Shown here piece after piece: positions 8,520 through 59,322 of a DNA stretch of 64,000 nt. Origin of the DNA: Salinibacterium xinjiangense (GTDB lineage Bacteria; Actinomycetota; Actinomycetes; Actinomycetales; Microbacteriaceae); assembly GCF_014645015.1 (NCBI RefSeq), contig NZ_BMLC01000001.1, forward strand, positions 124,001-188,000. Reading direction: 5' to 3'. The translations under genes and the position numbers were made by a program. Every line of letters begins with the position of its first letter. The stretch's first letter is position 1. Under the pieces are notes generated by a model, which did no database searches, was not told the origin of the DNA, and saw nothing but the letters and a program-made list of their open reading frames with translations.

Positions 8520-9974
8520 TCAGGCGTCGTCGTCGTTTTCCCACACCGGTGCTGCCGCATTGACGGCATCCCCGATGATGTGAACCCGGAGGTCGTTGGT
8601 CGAGCCGGAGATTCCGGGAGGGGAACCCGAGATGACGACGACCTTGTCACCGACCTCCGCAAGCCCTTCACCCAGAAGCACTTCGTCGACCTGTCTGTAC
8701 ATCGCATCCGTGTGGGTCACGCGTTCGACCACGAACGATTCGATGCCCCAGATCAGCGACATTCGGCGGCGGATGGCCGGGTCGGGCGTGAACGCCTTCA
8801 TCGGAACGCGGAACCGCAGCCGAGACATCCGGCGCGCTGAATCACCTGACTCGGTGAACACGCAGACATACCTGGCATCGACGAAGTCGGCCACCTCGGC
8901 GGCAGCGAGAGTGATCGCGCCACCCTGTGTGCGTGGCTTCGTACCCAGCGCAGGGATGCGCTCGAGGCCGTGTTCCTCGGTGGACTCCACGATGCGCGCC
9001 ATGGTCTGGACGGTGATGACCGGGTATTCCCCGACACTCGTCTCGCCAGACAACATGACAGCATCGGCGCCATCCAGGATGGCATTTGCGACGTCCGATG
9101 TCTCGGCGCGGGTCGGAACCGGTGAGGAGATCATCGACTCGAGCATCTGGGTAGCCACGATCACTGGCTTGGCCATGCGACGGGCGAGCTCGACCGTGCG
9201 CTTCTGCACGATCGGGACGGCCTCGAGGGGCAGCTCGACACCGAGGTCACCGCGGGCGACCATGATGGCATCGAACGCGTCGATGATGGCCTCGAGGTGG
9301 TCGACAGCCTGCGGCTTCTCGATCTTCGCGATGACGGGGACCTTGCGACCCTCCTCTGCCATGATCTCGTGCACGCGGATGATGTCGTCGGCATTGCGTA
9401 CGAACGAGAGAGCGATGAGGTCTGCGCCGAGCTTGAGGCCCCAGCGGAGGTCATCTTCGTCTTTCTCAGACAGGGCAGGTACGTTGACGGCAACCCCGGG
9501 GAGGTTGATTCCCTTGTTGTTCGACACGAACCCACCGACAATCACCTCGGTCGTGACGACTGGTCCATTGACCTCTGTGACCCTGACCTTGACCTTACCG
9601 TCGTCGATCAGCAGGAAGTCACCCGGTGAGACGTCATTGGGCAGCCCCTTGAAGGTGGTGCCGGAGAGTTCCCTGGTTCCCACGACGTCGTCCGTCGTGA
9701 TCTTGAAGATATCGCCCACCGCGAGGTCGTATGGGCCTGCCTCGAACTTGCCCAGCCGGATCTTGGGACCCTGCAGGTCTACCATCACGGCAACGGCGCG
9801 CCCGGAGTCTTCAGCGGCCTTCCGGACATTGGCGTAAACCTCTTCGTGCACGGCATAGGAGCCATGACTGAGGTTCATACGGGCTACATCGACACCTGCA
9901 TCGATGATCGCCCTGATGTTCTCGTAGCTCGACGTGGCTGGGCCGAGCGTCGCGACGATTTTGGCGCGTCTCAT
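8520..9974 (-). CDS. pyk: pyruvate kinase
   Basis: This 484-residue glycolytic enzyme makes pyruvate and ATP from phosphoenolpyruvate and ADP. It begins MRRAKIVATLGPATSS and contains the DLQGPKIR segment, the active-site lysine stretch IAKIEKPQAVDHL and the metal-binding MVARGDLGVELP. The B domain (about residues 70-170) and a C-terminal allosteric domain are present, so length is normal. It follows gltD on the same strand after a 45-bp gap that contains a GTG microsatellite. A hairpin follows its stop. Confidence 0.97.
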   Translation of the reverse strand: MRRAKIVATLGPATSSYENIRAIIDAGVDVARMNLSHGSYAVHEEVYANVRKAAEDSGRAVAVMVDLQGPKIRLGKFEAGPYDLAVGDIFKITTDDVVGTRELSGTTFKGLPNDVSPGDFLLIDDGKVKVRVTEVNGPVVTTEVIVGGFVSNNKGINLPGVAVNVPALSEKDEDDLRWGLKLGADLIALSFVRNADDIIRVHEIMAEEGRKVPVIAKIEKPQAVDHLEAIIDAFDAIMVARGDLGVELPLEAVPIVQKRTVELARRMAKPVIVATQMLESMISSPVPTRAETSDVANAILDGADAVMLSGETSVGEYPVITVQTMARIVESTEEHGLERIPALGTKPRTQGGAITLAAAEVADFVDARYVCVFTESGDSARRMSRLRFRVPMKAFTPDPAIRRRMSLIWGIESFVVERVTHTDAMYRQVDEVLLGEGLAEVGDKVVVISGSPPGISGSTNDLRVHIIGDAVNAAAPVWENDDDA

Positions 9975-9997
9975 ATCTTCCTTCTGTGGGTACTGCA

Positions 9998-10020
9998 GTG
10001 GTGGTGGTGGTGGTGGTGGT
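9998..10020. repeat. trinucleotide microsatellite (GTG)7
   Basis: Seven GTG triplets plus two bases, directly abutting the gltD stop codon (TGA at 10020-10022). The run ends about 23 bp upstream of the pyk start. On the mRNA strand it reads as a CAC/CCA run between the two genes. Confidence 0.95.
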
Positions 10021-11477
10021 CAGATTGCGAGTGCGTGATCGGTCGGTTTGACCGGGAACGGCAACAGTGTGTCACCTTCAAGATATTGATCGACAGCGGA
10101 TGCCGCCGCGCGGCCCTCGGCGATCGCCCAGACGATGAGTGACTGGCCGCGGCCAGCGTCGCCTGCAACGAACACGCCTGCTTCGCTGGTCTCGTACATT
10201 CCGTCACGCTCGATGTTGCCCCTGGCGTCGAACGGCACGGGCAACTGGGCGTCGATGGAACCAGATTCCGGACCCGTGAAGCCGAGTGCCAGAAGCACGA
10301 GGTCTGCCGGGATCTCGCGTTCGGTGCCCGACTTGGGCACGCGTCGCCCGTCGATGTACTCGGTCTCGGCAATCCGGATCGCCCGCACTTCGCCGGCGTC
10401 GTTCGACAGGAACTCCACGGTCGAGGCGAGATAGACACGTTCGCCGCCCTCCTCGTGGGCGCTGGACACCTCGAACAGAGCCGGTGCCATCGGCCATGGC
10501 TGGTGTTCGGGCCGTTCCGCGGGAGGCTGGAGGCCGATGGCGAGGTTGGTCACGGAGAGTGCCTGCTGGCGGTGCGACGTTCCGATGCAGTCCGATCCGG
10601 TGTCTCCTCCTCCGAGCACCACGACATGCTTTCCCTCTGCCGTGATCTGTTCTGCGACGGTGTCACCGGCGCCGGCCCTATTCGCCTGCACGAGATATTC
10701 CATGGCGAAATGCACACCCATGAGGTCCCGTCCGGGGACCGGGAGATCACGCGGAACTGTTGCACCGGTCGCGACGATGACAGCGTCGTACCTGGACTTG
10801 AGGTCGCTCCAGCTGATGTCGACACCGATTTCGACGCCCGCGCGGAATCGGGTTCCCTCGGCCTGCATCTGGGAGATCCGAAGCTCGATGTGCTTCTTCT
10901 CCATCTTGAAATCAGGGATGCCATACCGCAGCAGTCCGCCGATGCGGTCGTCCCGCTCGTACACCGCGACGGTGTGACCGGCCCTGGTCAGCTGCTGCGC
11001 GGCAGCGAGACCGGCCGGACCGGAGCCGACGATAGCGACGGTCTTACCCGTGAGTCGTTCCGGTGGACGCGGGGTGACGAGACCGTTCGCGAACGCCTGG
11101 TCGATGATGGACGCCTCGACCTGTTTGATGGTGACCGCCGGCTGGTTGATACCCAGCACGCAGGAGCTTTCGCAGGGAGCGGGACACAATCTCCCCGTGA
11201 ACTCCGGGAAATTGTTCGTGGCATGGAGGCGTTCGATCGCCTGCGCGCCCTCGCCCCGCCAGGTGAGGTCGTTCCATTCGGGGATCAGGTTGCCGAGCGG
11301 GCACCCCTGATGACAGAACGGGATGCCGCAATCCATGCAGCGCCCAGCCTGCCGCTTGAGCTCCGAGGCATCCTGCTGTTCATAGACCTCTTTCCAGTCC
11401 ATGAGGCGCAGGGCCACTGGTCGACGTTTGGCGGTTTCCCGCTCCTGTACCTTGAGGAATCCCTTGGGATCAGCCAC
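10020..11477 (-). CDS. gltD: glutamate synthase, small subunit
   Basis: A 485-residue flavoprotein that feeds NADPH electrons to the large subunit for glutamate formation. The N-terminal cysteine clusters for two [4Fe-4S] centres are visible ([18 protein letters not shown] and [15 protein letters not shown]). These are followed by the FAD loop [10 protein letters not shown] (about residue 150) and the NADPH loop [11 protein letters not shown] second FAD segment, [11 protein letters not shown], lies near the C-terminus. The GTG start overlaps the gltB stop by 8 bp, so the subunits are translationally coupled. Confidence 0.96.
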
Positions 11478-14400
11478 CGGTAACCTCCATGATTCGAGCC
11501 CAGGTCACGTCGCCGTCGGGGTCGAGCCCCTCGTCGATTGCGGCCTGGCGGGTCTGCAGCACCGCGGCGTAGTCGCGCGGCAGCACCTTGGTGAAACGCA
11601 GGACTGCCTCATCCATGTTCGCCAGCATTGCGGCAGCAACCACTGAGCCCGTCTCGTCGACGTGCCGCTGGAGCAGGTCACCCAGGATCTCGACATCGGC
11701 ACTGCCGAGTGCCGCGAGGATCAGCTCACCGGTACGCAGCGAATCGGCATTCACACGCTCGGTCGCCAGGTCGTAGATGTACGCCGTTCCTCCGGACATT
11801 CCGGCACCGAGGTTGCGCCCGGTCTCGCCCAGGATGACGGCGAGTCCGCCGGTCATGTATTCCAGGGCGTGGTCACCCACACCCTCAACGACAGCGGTCG
11901 CGCCCGAGTTGCGGACCAGGAAGCGCTCGCCCACGATGCCACGCAGGAACATGCTGCCCTGGGTGGCGCCGTAGCCGATCACGTTGCCCGCGATGACATT
12001 CTGTTCTGCGGGGAAAGTGCTCGACGCGCTCGGTCGGATGACGATCTGCCCTCCGCACAGCCCCTTGCCCACGTAGTCGTTGCTGTCGCCCTCAAGCCGG
12101 AGCAGGATACCCGCGGGCATGAACGCCCCGAGAGACTGGCCAGCGGTGCCGGTGAGGCGCACCTCGATGGTGCCGTTGGGCAGGCCGTTCTCGCCATGGC
12201 GCACCGTCACCTCATGACCCAGCATCGTTCCCACGGCTCGCTCGGTGTTGCGGATGGGCAACTCGATGACCACGGGGGTGCCGTGATCGAGCGCATCGGC
12301 ACTCAGTCTGATCAGTTGACGATCGAAGTGCTTCTCGAGCTCGTGATCCTGACTGACCCGGTTGATCCGCGGCTCGTCCTCGCCAAAGTCCGATCCGGCG
12401 AAGACCGGGCTCAGGTCGAGCCCGTCGGCCTTCCAGTGCTCGACGGCGCGAGCGGCATCCAGCAGTTCGCTACGGCCGATGGCCTCATCAAGACTGCGGA
12501 ATCCCAGCATCGACAGGTACTCGCGTACCTCCTGCGCCAGGAATTCGAAGAAGTTGACAATGAACTCCGGCTTGCCCGTGAAGCGAGCGCGAAGTTCGGG
12601 ATTCTGGCTGGCCACGCCGACGGGACACGTGTCGAGGTGACAGACGCGCATCAGGATGCAGCCCGACACCACGAGCGGCGCTGTGGCGAATCCATATTCC
12701 TCGGCACCGAGAAGCGCACCGATGATGACGTCGCGACCGGTCTTCATCTGGCCGTCGACCTGCACGACCACGCGGTCACGCATACCGTTGAGCATCAGCG
12801 TCTGCTGCGTCTCGGCAAGCCCGAGCTCCCACGGTGTTCCCGCATGCTTGAGGGAGTTGAGCGGGCTTGCGCCCGTGCCACCATCGTGACCCGATACCAG
12901 CACGACGTCAGCGAGAGCCTTGGTGACGCCGGCAGCTACCGCGCCGATACCGGACTGGCTCACGAGCTTGACGTGCACTCGAGCGGCGGGGTTGGCGCGC
13001 TTGAGGTCGAAGATTAGCTGCTTGAGGTCTTCGATCGAGTAGATGTCGTGGTGCGGGGGCGGCGAGATGAGGCCGACTCCGGCAGTGCCGTGGCGCGTAC
13101 GCGCGATCCACGGGTACACCTTATTGGCAGGCAGTTGACCACCCTCACCCGGCTTTGCTCCCTGGGCCATCTTGATCTGGATGTCGGTCGCGTGCGTGAG
13201 GTACATGCTCGTGACGCCGAACCGACCAGAGGCAACCTGCTTGATCGCACTGCGACGTTTCGGGTCGAGCAGCCGCTCGACATCCTCGCCGCCCTCACCG
13301 GTGTTAGACCTGCCGCCGAGCTGGTTCATGGCGATCGCCATCGTCTCGTGCGCTTCCTGGCTGATCGATCCGTAGCTCATCGCCCCGGTGCTGAAGCGTT
13401 TGACGATCGACGCAACAGGCTCAACCTCATCGAGCGGCACCACCGGCCGGACACCCTCTTTGATCGAGAAGAGACCGCGCAGCGTCATCAGGTTCGCGGC
13501 CTGGTCGTCGACCAGCTTCGTGTATTCGCGGAAGATGTCGTACCGGCGGGACCGCGTAGCGTGCTGGAGCCGGAACACGGTCTCGGGGTTGAACAGATGC
13601 GGCGGCCCCTCGCGACGCCACTGGTACTCCCCGCCTGTGATGAGTCGCTCGTGTGGGCTGGTGACGCCGTCCTCGGGGTAGGCCGAAAGGTGTCGGGCTG
13701 CGCTCTCCGCAGCGATCACATCGATGCCCACGCCACCCAACAGCGTGGAGGTTCCGGTGAAGTACTGGTCGACGAACGACTGGCCGAGACCCACCGCTTC
13801 GAAAGCCTGTGCGCCGGCGTAGGAGCCGACGACGGAAATCCCCATCTTCGACATGATCTTCAGCACACCCTTGCCGAGACCCTTGATCAGGTTGCCGACC
13901 GCTTTCTCGCCGGTAAGCCCCTGGATCATGCCGCTGCGTACGAGTTCTTCGGCAGTCTCCATGGCCAGGTAGGGGTTGATCGCCGATGCTCCGTAGCCGA
14001 TGAGGAGAGCGACATGGTGCACCTCACGCACATCGCCGGCCTCCGCGATAAGCCCCACCTTCATGCGGTTCTCTTCACGAATGAGGTGATGGTGCACTGC
14101 CGCAAGTGACAACAGCGATGGGATCGGCGCGAGGTCTTTGTTCGAGTCGCGGTCGGAGATCACGATGAACTGGGCTCCGCTGTGGATGGCCTCATCCACT
14201 TCGGAACACAGCTCGGCGAGCCGCTTCTCCATCGCCTTCTCGCCCCTGTCGACGCGGTACAGCGCGCGAAGTGTCACTGTCGGCCGCCGACCGCTCGAGG
14301 TCTCGAAGTGCTGGATCTTGGCCAACTCGTCGTTGTCGATCACCGGGAAGTCGAGCGAGATCTGCCTCGCGTGCTCCGGTGTTGCGGTTAGCAGGTTGAG

Positions 14401-53072: not shown

Positions 53073-53102
53073 CTAGCGAACGAGCCTCGAGCGAACGAGG
53101 CT
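53073..53102. repeat. 15-bp duplication over the aroQ stop codon
   Basis: CTAGCGAACGAGCCT at 53073-53087 is repeated as CGAGCGAACGAGGCT at 53088-53102 (13 of 15 identical). The first copy carries the aroQ stop; the second codes for the preceding SLVRS-type residues. Confidence 0.85.
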
Positions 53103-53513
53103 CAACGCGAGGCTGTATGAGTCGAAACCGAATCCTGCGATCACACCGGTAGCCACAGCCGAGATCACGCTCGTGTGCCTGAACTGCTCGCGAGCGTGGG
53201 GGTTGCTCAGGTGCACTTCGACGAGGATCAAGCCGGCCGAGGTCACCAGTTTTGCTGCATCGCTGAGGGCGTACGAGTAATGCGTGAAGGCTGCGGGATT
53301 CAGGATCACGGGGCTCGAGGTATCCACGGCCTCGTGCAGCCACCCGATCAGCGTCGCTTCGTCGTCGGTCTGGCGCAGGTCGATGGTGAGGCCGGATGCC
53401 TCGGCCTCGAGCCGCACCCGAAGATCGTCGAGGGTGCCACTGCCGTACACGTCGGGCTCGCGAGTGCCGAGCCTGCCGAGGTTCGGGCCATTGAGAACGA
53501 GGACTGTGGTCAC
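53073..53513 (-). CDS. aroQ: 3-dehydroquinate dehydratase, type II
   Basis: A 146-residue dehydratase of the shikimate pathway. The catalytic Arg-Tyr loop is GPNLGRLGTREPDVYG, and the substrate site is ILNPAAFTHYSYALSDA followed by VEVHLSNPHAREQFRHTS. The AAF replaces the more common GAY or GGL without loss of the asparagine. It lies next to efp, but it is separated from aroB by an inserted segment of about 4.7 kb. A small duplication overlaps its stop. Confidence 0.93.
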   Translation of the reverse strand: MTTVLVLNGPNLGRLGTREPDVYGSGTLDDLRVRLEAEASGLTIDLRQTDDEATLIGWLHEAVDTSSPVILNPAAFTHYSYALSDAAKLVTSAGLILVEVHLSNPHAREQFRHTSVISAVATGVIAGFGFDSYSLALSLVRSRLVR

Positions 53514-53580
53514 GGGTTCGAGTGTATCGAGACACCACCGGGATAACGCGCCGCCCTGATCGACCTCCGACTGCGCAGGC

Positions 53581-54528
53581 TTACAGCACGTTCTTCGGCA
53601 GGCGATGGATCGTCACTGCACCCACGGCGGCAAACGGGTGCAGGGGGTCCGGTTCGCCGGAACCGGTCGGACCCCCGAGGCGGGTGTGCCCAACCGCGCT
53701 CATGACGGAATACGCGTCCCCAAGATCCCAGCCGTGCTGCCCCGTGAGAAACGCGAACATATCCTCGTAGCCACGCGTGATACTTTCCTGGACCGGATCG
53801 CCGAGACCGACGAATATCCATTCATCCGCGGTCTCGACGCGCGGCGCGCGCAGCGGCATATTCTTGACCAGGTCAATACTGACCACCGCAGTGCCCTCGG
53901 CTTCGATGGCGACGAACGAGGACTCGCCCTCCGCCATCAGCGCGTGGATGTCGCCGATTGACAAATAGGCTCCGGGCACCATGACGGGAAGGTAGACCCT
54001 GGATCCGGGTCGGCACTCGGTGAGGTCCATATTGCCGCCCTGCGGATAGCTGGGCATGATCGTTGAATTCACACGCTCTGCCGGTGCGGTTCCGATGCAC
54101 CCGATCATCGGTCTGGCGTCAAAGACGTGCCGCTCCGTGACGTGCACTCCGTCTGCATCAATGGGTATCTGGCGAGTGAACACCGTGTCACCCATGACGC
54201 GTCTCAACGCTCCAGTACCGGGGATGCTGACCGACCAGCCGTGCTCTTTCAACCGGATCTCGTGGATCGTCACCACGAGCGCATCCCCGGGCTCAGCACC
54301 CTCCACGTACACCGGACCCGTCACTGGGTTGATGCCCACGGTGAGCTTTTCCATGTCGTGATGCTGGTGCAGTTGTTCGTACACCGCATCGCTGGTTTCG
54401 AAGCCGATCGTCTCGCCCGTACCCGGCGCAATGCGTAGGGCCGGCGGGGTATCGGCTCCGAAACCAAACTTGCCGTGCGACTTGTCGAGAAAGTGGTCGA
54501 TCGTCCCGGTCCGATGAGAATCGGTCAT
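53581..54528 (-). CDS. acetamidase/formamidase family protein
   Basis: A 315-residue FmdA/AmdA-family protein that would release ammonia from a short amide. Diagnostic parts are PVTGPVYVEGAEPGDALVVTI, MIGCIGTAPAE, GGNMDLTECRPGSRVYLPV and GDIHALMAEGE. The length fits the bacterial short form. The ATG overlaps the stop of the APC permease, so uptake and hydrolysis are co-translated. The actual amide is not known. Confidence 0.9.
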   Translation of the reverse strand: MTDSHRTGTIDHFLDKSHGKFGFGADTPPALRIAPGTGETIGFETSDAVYEQLHQHHDMEKLTVGINPVTGPVYVEGAEPGDALVVTIHEIRLKEHGWSVSIPGTGALRRVMGDTVFTRQIPIDADGVHVTERHVFDARPMIGCIGTAPAERVNSTIMPSYPQGGNMDLTECRPGSRVYLPVMVPGAYLSIGDIHALMAEGESSFVAIEAEGTAVVSIDLVKNMPLRAPRVETADEWIFVGLGDPVQESITRGYEDMFAFLTGQHGWDLGDAYSVMSAVGHTRLGGPTGSGEPDPLHPFAAVGAVTIHRLPKNVL

Positions 54529-55979
54529 GAGAGCGACTCGCCCGGCCCCACGGCGGGCACCTTCGTCACGTCGAGATCATCTGCGCCCTTCTCGGCGTCC
54601 TCGCCAGAGAATTCGGTCTTTCTGCCGCTGATTCGGTAGTAGAAGAAGACTCCCGCTCCGAGAACCAGCCAGATTACGCCGCCGATCTTGGCCTGCGGTG
54701 CTGCGTTCAGCAGTACATATCCAATGATCAGGAACCCGAGAATCGGCACGACGAGATGAAGAAGGTAGTTGTGCGACTTCTTGCGCACCACGTAATACAC
54801 GATGACGGCGAGGTGCAGCATCATGAACCCAAACAGGGCGCCGAAGTTCACGAGGGCTGCGATCAGGTCGATCTGCCCGACAAAGAACAGCACCAGAACG
54901 GCGGAGATTGCCGAGACGACGAGAACTGCATTTCGCGGGATCTGTCGACGGTCGATGCGTGACAGAAATGCGGGCAGCTGCCGGTCTCGGCTCATGGAGT
55001 AGAGCAACCTGGACGTAGCGGCCTGGGCTGCCATCGCGTTGGCGATTCCGACGGCCATCACGTTGACCACGAAGAACGCCGTCATCCACCCGCTGTTCGA
55101 GGCCGCCTGCACCAGGATAAAGAACGCGTTGCCAACCTCGTCGTCGCCGAACGATTCCCGTCCCCCGGCGAGGGCACTGGCCAGCCAGGTCTGCAGGATG
55201 AACAGGAAGGCGACCACGAAAAGCGCCATGATCATGGCGCGGCCGGCAGCATTGCGACCGCCGGTCGCTTCCTCCGACATGGTCGAAATGCCGTCGAAGC
55301 CCAGGAAGCTGAGCACCGCGATCGACAGGGCCGACGCGATGAGCGGCCCCGTCACCTTGCTTGCGTCCCATAGTGGGTCGATGGTGAAGGCAGCGTCGGG
55401 AATCGTGTTGCCGCTTAACGCATTGACAGCTATGACGACAAAGATCACCACGAAGGCGAGCTCGATGGCCAGGAAGATGCGGTTGATCCGTTTGATGGAA
55501 CTGATTCCCAGCAGGTTGATCACCGTGTTGATGACCACGAAGATCACCGCCCACATCCAGCGGGGAGAGTCCGGGAAGATGCCGACCATCGACTCTGCGG
55601 CGAAGACGTACAGCAGTGTTGGCACCAGCAGATAGTCCAGCAGGATTGCCCAGCCCGCGAAGAACCCGGCGGTCGGGTGGATCCCGCGCCCCACATACGA
55701 GAAGACCGAGCCGGCCAGCGGGATCGACTTGGCCATCTGCTGGTAAGCGAGCGCCGTGAAAATCATGGCGATCAGGCCGATCAGGTAGACCAGCGGAACC
55801 ATTCCACCCGCCGCGTTGTAGACCACGCCGAAGATTGCCCACGGTGCAATCGGCACCATGAACACGAGTCCGTAGATCAGCAGGTCCAGGGTGGAGACGG
55901 AACGCTTGAGTTCCTGTTTATAACCGTAGGACTCGAGCTGCTGCTGCGGCGTGAGATCCGGCGAATCTATTCTCGACAT
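54525..55979 (-). CDS. APC-family amino acid permease
   Basis: A 484-residue permease with about twelve hydrophobic helices. The first helix (LLIYGLVFMVPIAPWAIFGVVYNAAGG) and AGSVFSYVGRGIHPTAGFFAGWAILLDYLLVP match the APC family (YjeH/EAT-like). The C-terminus is a charged tail (KTEFSGEDAEKGADDLDV). The start is taken at the ATG 55979 (MSRIDS), which is closer to an AGAAAGA site than the upstream ATG at 56012. The substrate could be an amino acid, amine or amide; context with a peptidase and an amidase suggests a nitrogen compound. Confidence 0.88.
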   Translation of the reverse strand: MSRIDSPDLTPQQQLESYGYKQELKRSVSTLDLLIYGLVFMVPIAPWAIFGVVYNAAGGMVPLVYLIGLIAMIFTALAYQQMAKSIPLAGSVFSYVGRGIHPTAGFFAGWAILLDYLLVPTLLYVFAAESMVGIFPDSPRWMWAVIFVVINTVINLLGISSIKRINRIFLAIELAFVVIFVVIAVNALSGNTIPDAAFTIDPLWDASKVTGPLIASALSIAVLSFLGFDGISTMSEEATGGRNAAGRAMIMALFVVAFLFILQTWLASALAGGRESFGDDEVGNAFFILVQAASNSGWMTAFFVVNVMAVGIANAMAAQAATSRLLYSMSRDRQLPAFLSRIDRRQIPRNAVLVVSAISAVLVLFFVGQIDLIAALVNFGALFGFMMLHLAVIVYYVVRKKSHNYLLHLVVPILGFLIIGYVLLNAAPQAKIGGVIWLVLGAGVFFYYRISGRKTEFSGEDAEKGADDLDVTKVPAVGPGESLS

Positions 55980-56072
55980 CTTTGTCTTTCTGTTGAAGTG
56001 GGGGAACTGCATTATGAGAGCTGACCGTGCTGCGCTGCGGTGGTGCTGGTGGAAAAGAAGAGGGCTGAGGCG

Positions 56073-56987
56073 CTATCCCTGACGGTCAGACCGCGCGAGG
56101 AATGAAGCGATCACAGCGCGGAAGGCTTCGGGCTGCTCAAGGTGAGAGCAATGACTGGCGCCGGGGAAGACGTGGCTCGATACCGACGGAATATGCTCGA
56201 CGAATGGCGCCCAGGTGGCTGGTGTTGCTTCATCGAACTCCCCGGCGACGACCAGCGTCGGCGCGATGATCTGATCGAGCCTGTCGATAATGGTCCAGTA
56301 GCGAAGTGTCCCGACGATGCGGAACTCGTTGGGGCCGTTCATCGTGTGATACACCGTGGGGTCCGCCTCCATTTGACCCTCGCTCTCCGCGAAGCCGCGG
56401 GGGGCCGGCACTACTCGGCAAACGTGGCGGTCGTAGAAATCTCTCGTCGCTGCCAGGTACTCAGGATCGTGAATCGTGCCGTTTGTCTCGTGGCGCGTCA
56501 GGGCATCCTGCGTCTCTTGTGGAAGATGGGCGCGAAGCTCATTGGCACCCTCCACCCACAACTGCATGGATGCCGGTGAGTTGCAGATGCTGAGGCTGGC
56601 CAGGCCAGCGGGGCGTTCAACGGCGATCTCCGCTCCCAGCATTCCGCCCCATGACTGCCCGAGCAGGTGATATTCGGTGATTCCGAAGTGCTCTAGCAGA
56701 TTGTGGAATTCTTCGACGAAAAGGCGTGGACTCCAGAATTCGGCTGGAGCGTCCGGTAGGTGTGTGCTGTTGCCGCAACCAAGCTGGTCGTAAAAGATGA
56801 CGGTGCGCCCCGTGCTGGTGAGATCAGCCAGGTTGTTCAGGTAGTTGTGGGCCATACCCGGTCCCCCGTGCAAAACGACGAGCGGCAGCGCACCCGGCAA
56901 GGGGTTCGTTGGGGTGACGACTTTGGCCCAGGTCTCCCACTCGTGAAACGGCACTCTCGCCGTCGTCGCGTTCGTTGTTTCAGCCAC
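56073..56987 (-). CDS. proline iminopeptidase-family alpha/beta hydrolase
   Basis: A 304-residue S33-family peptidase without signal sequence, so it is cytoplasmic. The oxyanion motif is VVLHGGPGMAHNYL (HGGPG at 40-44), the nucleophile Ser112 lies in LLGQSWGGMLGAE, and the aspartate and histidine follow in VVAGEFDEATP and GASHCSHLEQPE. In the S33 family this form trims N-terminal residues or hydrolyses amino acid amides. It starts the operon with the APC permease and acetamidase and faces the GntR regulator. Confidence 0.9.
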   Translation of the reverse strand: MAETTNATTARVPFHEWETWAKVVTPTNPLPGALPLVVLHGGPGMAHNYLNNLADLTSTGRTVIFYDQLGCGNSTHLPDAPAEFWSPRLFVEEFHNLLEHFGITEYHLLGQSWGGMLGAEIAVERPAGLASLSICNSPASMQLWVEGANELRAHLPQETQDALTRHETNGTIHDPEYLAATRDFYDRHVCRVVPAPRGFAESEGQMEADPTVYHTMNGPNEFRIVGTLRYWTIIDRLDQIIAPTLVVAGEFDEATPATWAPFVEHIPSVSSHVFPGASHCSHLEQPEAFRAVIASFLARSDRQG

Positions 56988-57032
56988 CGTTGCTCCTGTT
57001 GTTCATTCCCGAGGATCATCATGTCCTACGAA

Positions 57033-57046
57033 TGGTCTAATAACCA
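57033..57046. promoter_or_regulatory. candidate FadR-type operator
   Basis: TGGTCTAATAACCA is an inverted repeat (TGGT, six bases, ACCA) located between the divergent peptidase and gntR genes. The TGGT/ACCA half-sites resemble those of FadR-subfamily GntR regulators, so the gene product at 57128 is the likely binder and would control both directions. Confidence 0.45.
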
Positions 57047-57127
57047 ACCTTTCTTTTTGCTGAGATGGCGCTCGTCCTGGTTCGCGGTGATTCGGGGTTC
57101 GAAGTTGAGTCTGGCGAGTATGCGTTA

Positions 57128-57898
57128 ATGGTGGTTATGACGCACCTCGAGACCCCCGTTCTGCCGAGCAGTCTCGACGCGCCACTCAACGGCGCATCCC
57201 GGGTCGACGAGATTTACGATCGGCTGGTCACCGCTATCGCCATCGGTGAGTACCTGCCCGGGGCGCGACTTCCTGCGGAACGCGAACTGGCAGCCAATTT
57301 GCGAGTCGCGAGAATGACCGTGCGCGAAGCTCTCTCGCGGTTGGTCGAACAGGGAATGCTCGTGAAGGCCCGCGGGCGCGGCGGCGGCTCCTTTGTACGC
57401 GAGCAGTGGACCGCGATATCCAGCGCTTCCGTACATCGCACCCTCTCGGCGCGATGGGAAGCGCTGCGAGACACCTGCGAAGCGATGATGCACCTGTCTG
57501 GCGCCGTGGCCCTCGCTGCGGCAGAGAAGCGCACCGATGACGACGTGATGGTCCTCCGTGCTCGGTTGGAGGATTATCGCCTCGCAGAGTCTGGTAGTGC
57601 CGCTCAGAAAGCAGATGAGCGTCTGCACATCGCTATAGCTGATGCTGCCCACAATGTGACGCTCAAACGGATGCTCGCTGAGCTCGAAAGCCAGGTGAGC
57701 ATCGCCGCTCCGTCGCATGTGTGGGGATTCCCAGAGGGGCAGCGAGAGATGGAACAGCGTGCTCTCGTGGATCATCAGAATCTGGTGGAAGCCATCTGCG
57801 AAAAGCGCTGCCCGGATGCGGGGGCCATCGGGCTCGCGCACGCGCGCATCGACATGGAACTTCTGGAGGCGGCCCTTCACAGGGCGGGAGCACCCTGA
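57128..57898 (+). CDS. GntR-family (FadR subfamily) regulator
   Basis: A regulator of about 256 residues. The N-terminal winged helix is clear (RVDEIYDRLVTAIAIGEYLPGARLPAERELAANLRVARMTVREALSRL, given here only as its span, residues 25-72), and the GRGGGSFV hairpin follows. The C-terminal FCD-type all-helical domain has the metal-binding residues spread in DERLHIAIADAAHN and DHQNLVEAI. Ligand would be an intermediate of the adjacent peptidase/amidase pathway. The start is uncertain: ATG at 57128 or 57137 are both possible, and an ATG at 57065 is also in frame. Confidence 0.85.
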   Translation: MVVMTHLETPVLPSSLDAPLNGASRVDEIYDRLVTAIAIGEYLPGARLPAERELAANLRVARMTVREALSRLVEQGMLVKARGRGGGSFVREQWTAISSASVHRTLSARWEALRDTCEAMMHLSGAVALAAAEKRTDDDVMVLRARLEDYRLAESGSAAQKADERLHIAIADAAHNVTLKRMLAELESQVSIAAPSHVWGFPEGQREMEQRALVDHQNLVEAICEKRCPDAGAIGLAHARIDMELLEAALHRAGAP

Positions 57899-57901
57899 GC
57901 A

Positions 57902-58247
57902 CTACGGTCGCGACTCGGGGACGCGCACTGCTCCGACGGCGATCAGTATCCCGCCGGTGATCCTGTTGATAGCGCGCACGACCGGGGCGATGTGAGCCAG
58001 CGGCGGGCAACCTCGGTGGCGAAAATCACCGCGGCGAAGCCCATCAGTGCGATGGAGAACACACCGACCGTGGGGTTCAGCAGGTTCGTCAGGGCTCTGC
58101 GCCGATACGCGGCCCAGAGCGAGCGGAGTTCGTGCCCGGTGCCCTGCCCTGAGTCAGGGCCGCACACAACACACGCGCCGAGCGCGCTTCGGGAAGAACG
58201 GTCAGCATGGCGGCGACGAGCGCGAATCCCAGAGGGACCCGGTAATG
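57902..58247 (-). pseudogene. LysE-family transporter remnant
   Basis: Three pieces of a LysE/RhtB exporter remain in different frames. They are an N-terminal helix (FALVAAMLTVLPEARSARVLCAALTQGR, near 58150-58240), a central LTNLLNPTVGVFSIALMGFAAV (near 58000-58085), and a C-terminal helix RAINRITGGILIAVGAVRV ending at a stop at 57902. About 90 residues between the first two pieces are missing. It fills the gap between gntR and aroB and is probably a leftover of the inserted segment. Confidence 0.75.
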
Positions 58248-58248
58248 C

Positions 58249-59322
58249 TCACACGCCGACTTCCTGGTAGGCCGCATATAGCATCGCCTCGTCGGGGCCG
58301 GCGAGCACCGAGGGCTTTCCGACATCGTCCAGCACGATGAACCGGATCATCCCGGCCCTGGCCTTCTTATCACGCTGCATCGTCGCGAGAAGGGTGTTCC
58401 AGCGGCCGAGCGAGTAGTCAATCGGCAGGGTGAGTGACTCGAGGATCGAACGGTGGCGGTCGACGACGGCATCAGAGAGTGAGCCGGCCAGCCTTCCCAG
58501 CTCCGCGGCAAAGACCATGCCCACGCTGATAGCCGCACCGTGGCGCCAGCGGTAGCGCTCGGCGTGCTCGATCGCGTGACCCAGCGTGTGTCCGTAGTTC
58601 AGGATCTCCCTCGGGCCAGACTCCTTGAAATCCTCACCGACCACCCGTGCCTTCAGCCCGATTGACAGTTCGACCACGCGGCGGAATTCGGCGCTGTGCG
58701 GATCCGTCACGAGATCGACATCGGCTTCGATGATGTCGAGGATCTCGGGTTCACCGATGAACCCGCACTTCACGATCTCAGCGAAACCGGCCAGAATCTC
58801 GTTGCGCGGCAGGTCGTCGAGCACGTCCAGGTCGGCGATCACCGCGGCCGGTGCGTAGAACGAGCCGACCAGGTTCTTGCCCTCGGCCGTGTTGATGCCG
58901 GTCTTGCCACCCACGGCCGCATCCACCATTCCGGCGACACTCGTCGGGCACTGGATGAGTCGCACACCGCGAAGCCAGGTCGCCGCGACGAAACCGGCGA
59001 GGTCTGTCGTCGAGCCTCCCCCGAAACCGATGACCGCATCGGTGCGCGTGAAGTCGGTCTGGCCCATGATGCCCCAGCAGAACGCGGCGACCTCGACGCG
59101 CTTTGCGTCCTCGGCATCCGGAACCTCTGCCAGCAGCACCTCATAGCGATCGGAGAGCGAGTCACGCAGGGCGTTGGCGCGAGCGCCGAGAGTGGATGGA
59201 TGCACGATCAGCACCTTGGAAACGCGTGTGCCGAGGTGTTCTGCCACTGTCGAGAGTGTGCCGTTACCGATGATCACGTCATAGGGATCTGTGCCCTTGA
59301 CGGGGATGACGGTGGAGGTCAT
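58249..59322 (-). CDS. aroB: 3-dehydroquinate synthase
   Basis: A 357-residue NAD- and zinc-dependent enzyme converting DAHP to dehydroquinate. GFGGGSTTDLAGFVAATWLRG binds NAD, and LIQCPTSVAGMVDAAVGGKTGIN and LNYGHTLGHAIEHAE contribute the metal and substrate residues. The ATG overlaps aroK by 4 bp. Its partner aroQ is displaced by the inserted segment. Confidence 0.96.
   Translation of the reverse strand: MTSTVIPVKGTDPYDVIIGNGTLSTVAEHLGTRVSKVLIVHPSTLGARANALRDSLSDRYEVLLAEVPDAEDAKRVEVAAFCWGIMGQTDFTRTDAVIGFGGGSTTDLAGFVAATWLRGVRLIQCPTSVAGMVDAAVGGKTGINTAEGKNLVGSFYAPAAVIADLDVLDDLPRNEILAGFAEIVKCGFIGEPEILDIIEADVDLVTDPHSAEFRRVVELSIGLKARVVGEDFKESGPREILNYGHTLGHAIEHAERYRWRHGAAISVGMVFAAELGRLAGSLSDAVVDRHRSILESLTLPIDYSLGRWNTLLATMQRDKKARAGMIRFIVLDDVGKPSVLAGPDEAMLYAAYQEVGV

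Follow-up and report, generated by a model that had tools for sequence, protein, structure and literature searches.

A 64,000-nucleotide stretch of the Salinibacterium xinjiangense genome (contig NZ_BMLC01000001.1, positions 124,001 to 188,000), called the window here, carries a module of four genes inserted between aroB and aroQ. Three of them lie on the minus strand and encode a hydrolase of the S33 proline-iminopeptidase family (S33), a permease of the APC superfamily (APC) and a short amidase of the acetamidase/formamidase family (AMD); the fourth is divergent and encodes a GntR/FCD regulator. This module is a real, conserved and mobile catabolic unit, probably of the amide or aminoacyl-amide utilisation kind, and apparently an undescribed one. 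No published description of the gene set was recognised among the open-access papers listed by the searches, though one may exist. As to function, we give about an even chance (roughly 0.5) to a self-contained, horizontally moving catabolic operon that imports and hydrolyses small amino-amides. In such an operon, the permease would import a substrate with an amine and without a free alpha-carboxylate, S33 would take off the aminoacyl part as an L-amino-acid amidase or aminopeptidase, and the FmdA/AmdA-family amidase would hydrolyse the remaining, or an alternative, simple amide to ammonia. The GntR/FCD protein would sit on a palindrome between the divergent genes and keep the operon repressed as long as neither substrate nor product is bound. 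What is observed are the gene order and its conservation, the palindrome, the catalytic and anchor residues, the permease subfamily and the place between aroB and aroQ, a slot without the module in congeners; which way the permease transports, what the enzymes do, how the regulator acts and what class of compound is used are inferred.

Conservation of the gene set and its palindrome

First, the same genes recur together in other genomes. Named genomes were scanned with the AMD alignment, and 80 of 91 confirmed loci were kept. Since these loci were chosen by AMD, its presence is given, and the presence of S33 and APC is the finding. S33, APC and AMD follow each other in the same order in 67 of the 80 loci, and 64 of these 67 also have the divergent GntR gene (L060, L061 and L099 have the three genes without it). 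A GntR homologue, 41-71% identical to that of the window, is divergent in 67 of the 80 loci, two of these being fragments at contig ends. Six loci cut by contig ends (L046, L062, L080, L083, L095, L103) were counted as incomplete among the 80. The counts were made without a filter on short (<=100 amino acids) or overlapping (>=50 bases) stretches, which had hidden AMD in L081, L083 and L084 and two GntR fragments. The hosts belong to Cryobacterium, Frigoribacterium, Curtobacterium, Agreia, Arthrobacter, Microbacterium, Kocuria and relatives. At the family level, a close S33 was found in 16 of 199 genomes, 11 of which, the window included, have S33-APC-AMD. At the order level, 15 of 396 genomes have a close AMD: eight with S33-APC-AMD, two with APC-AMD and five with AMD alone. 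These searches agree with the 80-locus set and are not independent of it, as they cover partly the same genomes. Overall, the module is sparsely distributed and conserved, and some copies are incomplete. An earlier note on this DNA, made from the sequence, had read the genes as a single operon and had named a lack of co-occurrence elsewhere as one finding that would refute its reading; the operon is supported, the genes do co-occur elsewhere, in 67 of 80 loci, and the idea that the genes are chance neighbours and not a real unit was rejected on the same count.

In the window, the genes lie where the earlier note had placed them, as confirmed by the list of open reading frames (ORFs) and by domain scores. 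S33 (304 amino acids) occupies 56073..56987, APC (495 amino acids) 54525..56012 and AMD (315 amino acids) 53581..54528, all on the minus strand. S33 and APC are separated by 60 bp, and the start of AMD overlaps the stop of APC by 4 bp. The regulator gene (57128..57898, plus strand) matches the Pfam domains GntR (67.8 bits) and FCD (51 bits). Its ORF is open from 57065, and ATG 57128 or 57137 is the likelier start. A sigma-70 promoter scan of 53400-58400 found none. In Glaciibacter (L038, 9964-12275), the module is followed by another S33-APC pair, which is more distant (38% and 42% identical). In Microbacterium L096 and L098 (about 9970-11480), the gene behind the amidase, on its strand, encodes a further APC-type permease that is distant (24% identical).

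Second, the interval between S33 and the regulator gene holds an operator-like palindrome, AAAGGTT-N8-GACCATT as read on the minus strand, at 57031-57051 (listed as 57030..57054), 44-64 bp before the S33 start. We compared 65 such intergenic regions, namely those of the 64 loci among the 80 that have GntR and S33 matches and an interval of less than 900 bases, plus the window. The pattern WGGT[CTA]-N7 to 10-[AGT]ACCW occurs in 64 of the 65, whereas shuffles gave 1.06 on average and never more than 4; this pattern was drawn up post hoc from the same rows, which are related and do not represent independent events. A count of 4-base dyads gave GGTC-N9-GACC in 35 of the 65 regions (0.6 expected) and GTCT-N7-AGAC in 30 (0.1 expected). 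The commonest form is AAWGGTCTTG-N4-GAGACCWTT, and the palindrome is kept while the site sequences differ between genera. No copy of the palindrome appeared in 100 shuffles of the window. Within its genome, the window site is the sole perfect match; total matches were 9 and 8 versus 1 and 3 in the control, and some of the 1-mismatch sites elsewhere in the genome may be real. A genome search at N9 spacing, which misses the N8 site of the window by design, returned 2-mismatch matches only (8 and 8 versus 5 and 5 in the control). The simplest reading is that the GntR/FCD protein is a local repressor that would act at this palindrome. The earlier note had seen a TGGT/ACCA dyad here. TGGT-N6-ACCA is literally present, and the regulator does come with a conserved palindrome; the register was wrong, as this dyad overlaps the wider palindrome in another register. 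TGGT-N3/8-ACCA was rejected as the conserved site since it occurs in two of the 65 regions, the window included, compared with 0.91 in shuffles.

Origin of the module in the aroB-aroQ slot

The module splits aroB (58249..59322, minus strand, DHQ synthase Pfam match) from aroQ (53073..53513, minus strand, DHquinase_II Pfam match), as the earlier note had described. In the ORF list, no gene lies in this interval beyond the module and a remnant of a LysE-family gene (57903..58122, minus strand), a neighbour outside the module that is recognised by nucleotide similarity to intact ORFs in the same slot of congeners. We compared the slot in 20 congeners, fetched out of 25 non-own ones with an aroB match, and the module is in none of these 20. 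The two aro genes are less than 100 bp apart in 12 of them; in the closest congener, whose aroB is 94% identical, the gap is 51 bp. Six others (L245, L247-L250, L256) have an intact LysE-family ORF in the slot, all six matching PF01810 with 126-135 bits. The remaining two have a 585-bp gap and a 2.3-kb insert, respectively. The insert (L262, 1133-3427) contains, by eye, GntR-like and ABC-transporter-like ORFs, so that the slot accepts varied cargo.

Within the genus, the permease was found at E 1e-80 or better in two of 27 genomes, the present one and G958, which has a 48% identical permease relative and, next after it at a contig end, a distant amidase. A tree of concatenated S33, APC and AMD was built from 54 loci; of 87 inputs, sixteen Curtobacterium loci had been removed in a manual thinning and 17 others for want of one of the three proteins. 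It places the window copy together with loci of Pseudarthrobacter and Arthrobacter (L045, L070, L116), with a local support of 0.996. The genome of L045 appears to belong to another family (f2) than that of the window (f1). Arrival of the module by horizontal transfer is therefore well supported, because the module is absent from the slot in the 20 congeners and the window copy groups with Arthrobacter and Pseudarthrobacter.

The earlier note had also proposed transfer followed by erosion, with the LysE remnant as the sign of both. Transfer of the segment stands, and the remnant is real: over 80 nt it shares 82.5% identity with the intact L248 gene, while Pfam alone gives it 14 bits, below the cut-off of 25.6. 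What does not stand is the remnant as a sign of an eroded import. LysE as part of the imported segment was rejected since intact LysE genes occupy the same slot in six of 20 congeners, and the remnant is best read as a decayed gene native to the slot rather than as cargo.

Proteins of the module and their probable substrate

The S33 protein matches TIGR01250 with 249.8 bits, above the curated cut-off of 167.65. S112, D252, H279, E221 and E253 are invariant across 15 aligned S33 sequences. The first three are the catalytic triad, and the two glutamates are those that grip the N-terminal amine of the substrate. By counting along the alignment, E221 and E253 are in register with E213 and E245 of 1mt3, the tricorn-interacting factor F1, in which these residues hold the amino end of the substrate. 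Since both amine-holding glutamates are kept, the S33 substrate should carry a free alpha-amine. The best PDB match is 3nwo (467 bits), from M. smegmatis. Another relative, 7a6g (320.5 bits), is labelled a putative proline iminopeptidase in its PDB entry and is known as an L-amino-acid amidase, or L-proline amide hydrolase. In the S33 tree, the enzymes linked to an APC fall into a single clade with 24 tips (support 0.83), which includes two copies without an adjoining APC and also 3nwo, whose gene context was not seen. APC-linked copies outside this clade are that of an E. coli plasmid, L190 and a Deinococcus copy located 6 kb from its APC. A separate clade (support 0.87) joins 7a6g with three plasmid enzymes linked to LuxR-type regulators. 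One LuxR-linked Rhizobium copy branches deep, and an ABC-linked Shinella enzyme adjoins the APC-linked clade.

The permease matches AA_permease_2 with 128.1 bits (cut-off 27), and two amino-acid permease families score near 128 bits. Of the NCBIfam models, 22 match it and none of the 22 reaches its cut-off. We compared it with seven permeases of E. coli K-12. By blastp, PuuP (E 2e-57) and PlaP (1e-54) are far closer than LysP, GabP, CycA, AdiC and FrlA (2e-14 or weaker). The module-type permeases form a sister clade of PuuP and PlaP and do not fall inside it, with 28-29% identity. In transmembrane segment 1 (TM1), a P-[IM]-[AST] motif is present in all 12 module-type permeases compared, the window included, and in PuuP and PlaP. 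LysP, GabP, CycA, AdiC, FrlA and GkApcT (5oqt) carry G-[TAS]-[GS]-x-F in TM1, and none of the 12 does. The G-[TAS]-[GS]-x-F stretch binds carboxylate. Because TM1 is PuuP-like and the glycine motif is missing, an amine without a free carboxylate is suggested as the permease substrate. A pathway that takes up short peptides beginning with Pro or Ala and degrades them is improbable: the glycine motif tied to carboxylate binding is absent from this permease, APC proteins rarely transport peptides, and peptide degradation would leave the amidase unexplained. That reading draws on the membership of S33 in TIGR01250 and on the peptidase activity of PipA and AapA as described in the available part of PMC4981722.

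The amidase of the window matches PF03069 (FmdA_AmdA) with 102.6 bits, above the gathering cut-off of 27; its PDB relatives are 5ubu and 2ii1, and the mean column identity of an 11-member AMD alignment is 83%. FmdA formamidase (the NF045496 equivalog) was rejected as its identity, at 65.4 bits versus a cut-off of 500. Members of the AMD family act on primary amides. It is the amine anchor of S33, the type of permease and the amide-hydrolysing family of AMD together that point to small amino-amides as the substrate of the operon. The earlier note had suggested import of an amino acid amide or similar compound, cleavage of its aminoacyl part and release of ammonia. The kind of permease and the amine-anchoring residues of S33 make such a putative pathway likelier. 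As further AMD contexts, an AMD homologue (79% identical) in L048 (8185-10703) is flanked on one side by another GntR-family regulator and on the other by an Asp/Glu/hydantoin racemase gene (PF01177), an arrangement with no APC or S33 that may be a hint to the substrate. Another lies directly behind a ketopantoate-reductase-family (PanE/ApbA) gene in Paenarthrobacter L065 (8004-9924). The genome of the window itself has a second acetamidase/formamidase-family gene (contig C2, about 591300-592000; L265, 5242), which is 29% identical to enterobacterial AMD.

Beyond Micrococcales, the permease has similar neighbours. At the class level, 22 APC loci were fetched out of 24 non-own matches; AMD is adjacent in 15, S33 in eight and neither in three. 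Of 23 plasmid records with an APC relative, many being near-identical copies and three standing outside the adjacency count, at least 17 have an adjacent AMD-family gene, two have an adjacent PIP-family gene (Pararhizobium and one E. coli plasmid) and one has neither. In Pararhizobium, the genes for PIP, APC and an FCD regulator stand in a row. Among the E. coli plasmids (L138, L145), one carries AMD-APC beside IS26 and another carries PIP-APC between two copies of IS26 near blaTEM-1; near-identical AMD-APC was seen in 10 of 5426 E. coli genomes, and the PIP-APC pair in one. In other actinobacteria, a UrtA/AmiC-superfamily protein is encoded upstream of APC-AMD; most of these genomes belong to family f94, with one each from f115, f4 and f1. 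The cluster comprises nine proteins, one probably in a wrong frame, and all four that were scanned match Peripla_BP_6/5. One of them reached 152.8 bits with the NCBIfam model of urea-binding UrtA, below the cut-off of 492.75, and against solved structures this same protein matched 8tg1 best (121.5 bits), with urea-binding proteins near 80 and AmiC at 51. By eye, two begin without a signal peptide. A cytoplasmic amide sensor is a possible role for this protein (L183, 7564-8652, and relatives).

These loci bear on another idea, in which APC-AMD scavenges nitrogen from acetamide- or formamide-type compounds and S33 is a loosely associated peptidase. It gains from APC-AMD pairs without an adjoining S33 in further actinobacterial families, Deinococcus and enterobacterial plasmids, from the UrtA/AmiC-like protein in part of these S33-less loci, and from the order-level genomes with AMD alone. 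Nevertheless, we consider it quite unlikely. The S33-less version is remote, with a permease 44-47% identical to that of the window and an AMD closer to enterobacterial AMD (31-35%) than to the window's. Moreover, in the version studied here the operon begins with S33 in 67 of 80 loci, the palindrome precedes S33 in 64 of the 65 regions scanned, and the window AMD falls far below the formamidase equivalog cut-off.

Several observations weigh against the import and hydrolysis of amino-amides by one operon. GntR-APC-AMD occurs without S33 in three uncut loci (L037, L043, L054), AMD occurs without the others in L048, L065, L074 and L113 and is alone in five of the 15 order-level AMD genomes, and L172 and L173 have GntR-S33-APC without AMD. 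From the loci without S33 or with AMD alone, it follows that the pathway is not obligate. The carboxylate argument depends on the role ascribed to one motif, and AdiC, an arginine:agmatine antiporter by its annotation, keeps the glycine motif though agmatine has no carboxylate; the TM1 motif therefore sorts substrates imperfectly. A neighbouring glutamine-synthetase-family gene in Deinococcus and in an 'Arthrobacter citreus' plasmid would also fit an amine substrate.

Comparison with known systems

The plant-responsive pip systems (PipR-PipA-AapA of Pseudomonas GM79, and those of OryR, XccR and NesR) are alike in having a PIP-family S33 enzyme beside a ligand-responsive regulator and an importer. 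In GM79, two S33 enzymes, PipA and AapA, cleave Pro- and Ala-beta-naphthylamides, and the response is lost in an importer mutant and exaggerated in peptidase mutants, according to the available part of the report (PMC4981722). The same part describes an APC-superfamily gene upstream of oryR-type genes in Xanthomonas, for which its authors propose possible signal import (PMC4981722). PipR responds to the ethanolamine derivative HEHEAA, as far as the accessible sections of two papers tell (PMC7301841, PMC10134790), and in those of the latter the mode of action of pip genes beside plant-responsive regulators is described as unknown (PMC10134790). The pip systems use a LuxR-type activator and, in most cases, an ABC importer for peptides, in contrast to the GntR/FCD regulator, the APC permease and the extra amidase found here. 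In the window module, there is no LuxR-type regulator beside the pip-type gene and no ABC importer, and the adjoining regulator is GntR/FCD. Thus, the module is not a member of the pip systems; it may work in a similar way.

Closer to the pip systems are relatives of the window S33 on plasmids of Rhizobium, Aureimonas and Nitratireductor, which adjoin LuxR-type regulators and ABC importers and so resemble the plant-responsive loci; all three of these regulators have an autoinducer-binding domain and a LuxR DNA-binding domain. These PipR-like plasmid loci lend some weight to another substrate, a small ethanolamine- or polyamine-like amine bearing an N-acyl or aminoacyl group (for example HEHEAA), whose amide bond S33 would split, the amine being used further and AMD acting on the other half or on a by-product. 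The sister relation of the permease to putrescine importers agrees with it, as does the glutamine-synthetase-family neighbour in Deinococcus, which matches gamma-glutamylputrescine synthetase best (323.9 bits, below the cut-off of 650). We regard it as rather unlikely, since the window module has no LuxR-type regulator, ABC importer or amine-catabolic enzyme, no glutamine-synthetase-family match was found at E 1e-8 in 32 actinobacterial loci (L172-L203), and AMD-family enzymes are known for acting on primary amides. Going further, one could speculate that the operon is an actinobacterial (Gram-positive) counterpart of the plant-responsive pip systems, spread by gene transfer, in which the same kind of plant-derived amide signal would enter through APC, be destroyed by the PIP-type enzyme and the amidase, and be sensed by a GntR repressor instead of a LuxR solo. 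We think this unlikely; the interest of the module would rise if the plant-signal link were borne out.

For small amino-amides, the reading preferred here, relatives of the single proteins offer further comparison. 7a6g has the same triad and anchor glutamates as the window S33, but sits with the LuxR/ABC-linked plasmid enzymes in the tree. The proline iminopeptidase 3nwo falls with the GntR-S33-APC loci L172 and L173 (81% and 77% identical), which are without AMD. PuuP and PlaP of E. coli are the nearest of the seven K-12 permeases and have the TM1 motif in common with the window permease, but belong to a separate clade, and the neighbours of PuuP are puu genes, unlike those of the window permease. 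The value of the module lies in its being a compact four-gene actinobacterial unit and thus a second, simpler handle on what pip-type S33 enzymes act on, because the S33 family is common to both and the other genes point to amides or amines. It would also give a role to two subfamilies, one of permeases and one of amidases, which have only generic labels in the records examined. A last comparison is with the acetamidase operons (amiC-amiR-amiE with an ABC transporter, and formamidase with urt genes), which likewise combine an amidase, a transporter and a regulator for amide nitrogen in the available part of their description (PMC13209695). No AmiC-like sensor stands beside the amidase in the window module; it is elsewhere that a UrtA/AmiC-superfamily protein appears upstream of APC-AMD. 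The acetamidase operons use another transporter and other regulators, and an S33 enzyme is not named in that part of the source (PMC13209695), whereas the module joins S33 and an APC permease to the amidase under a GntR/FCD regulator.

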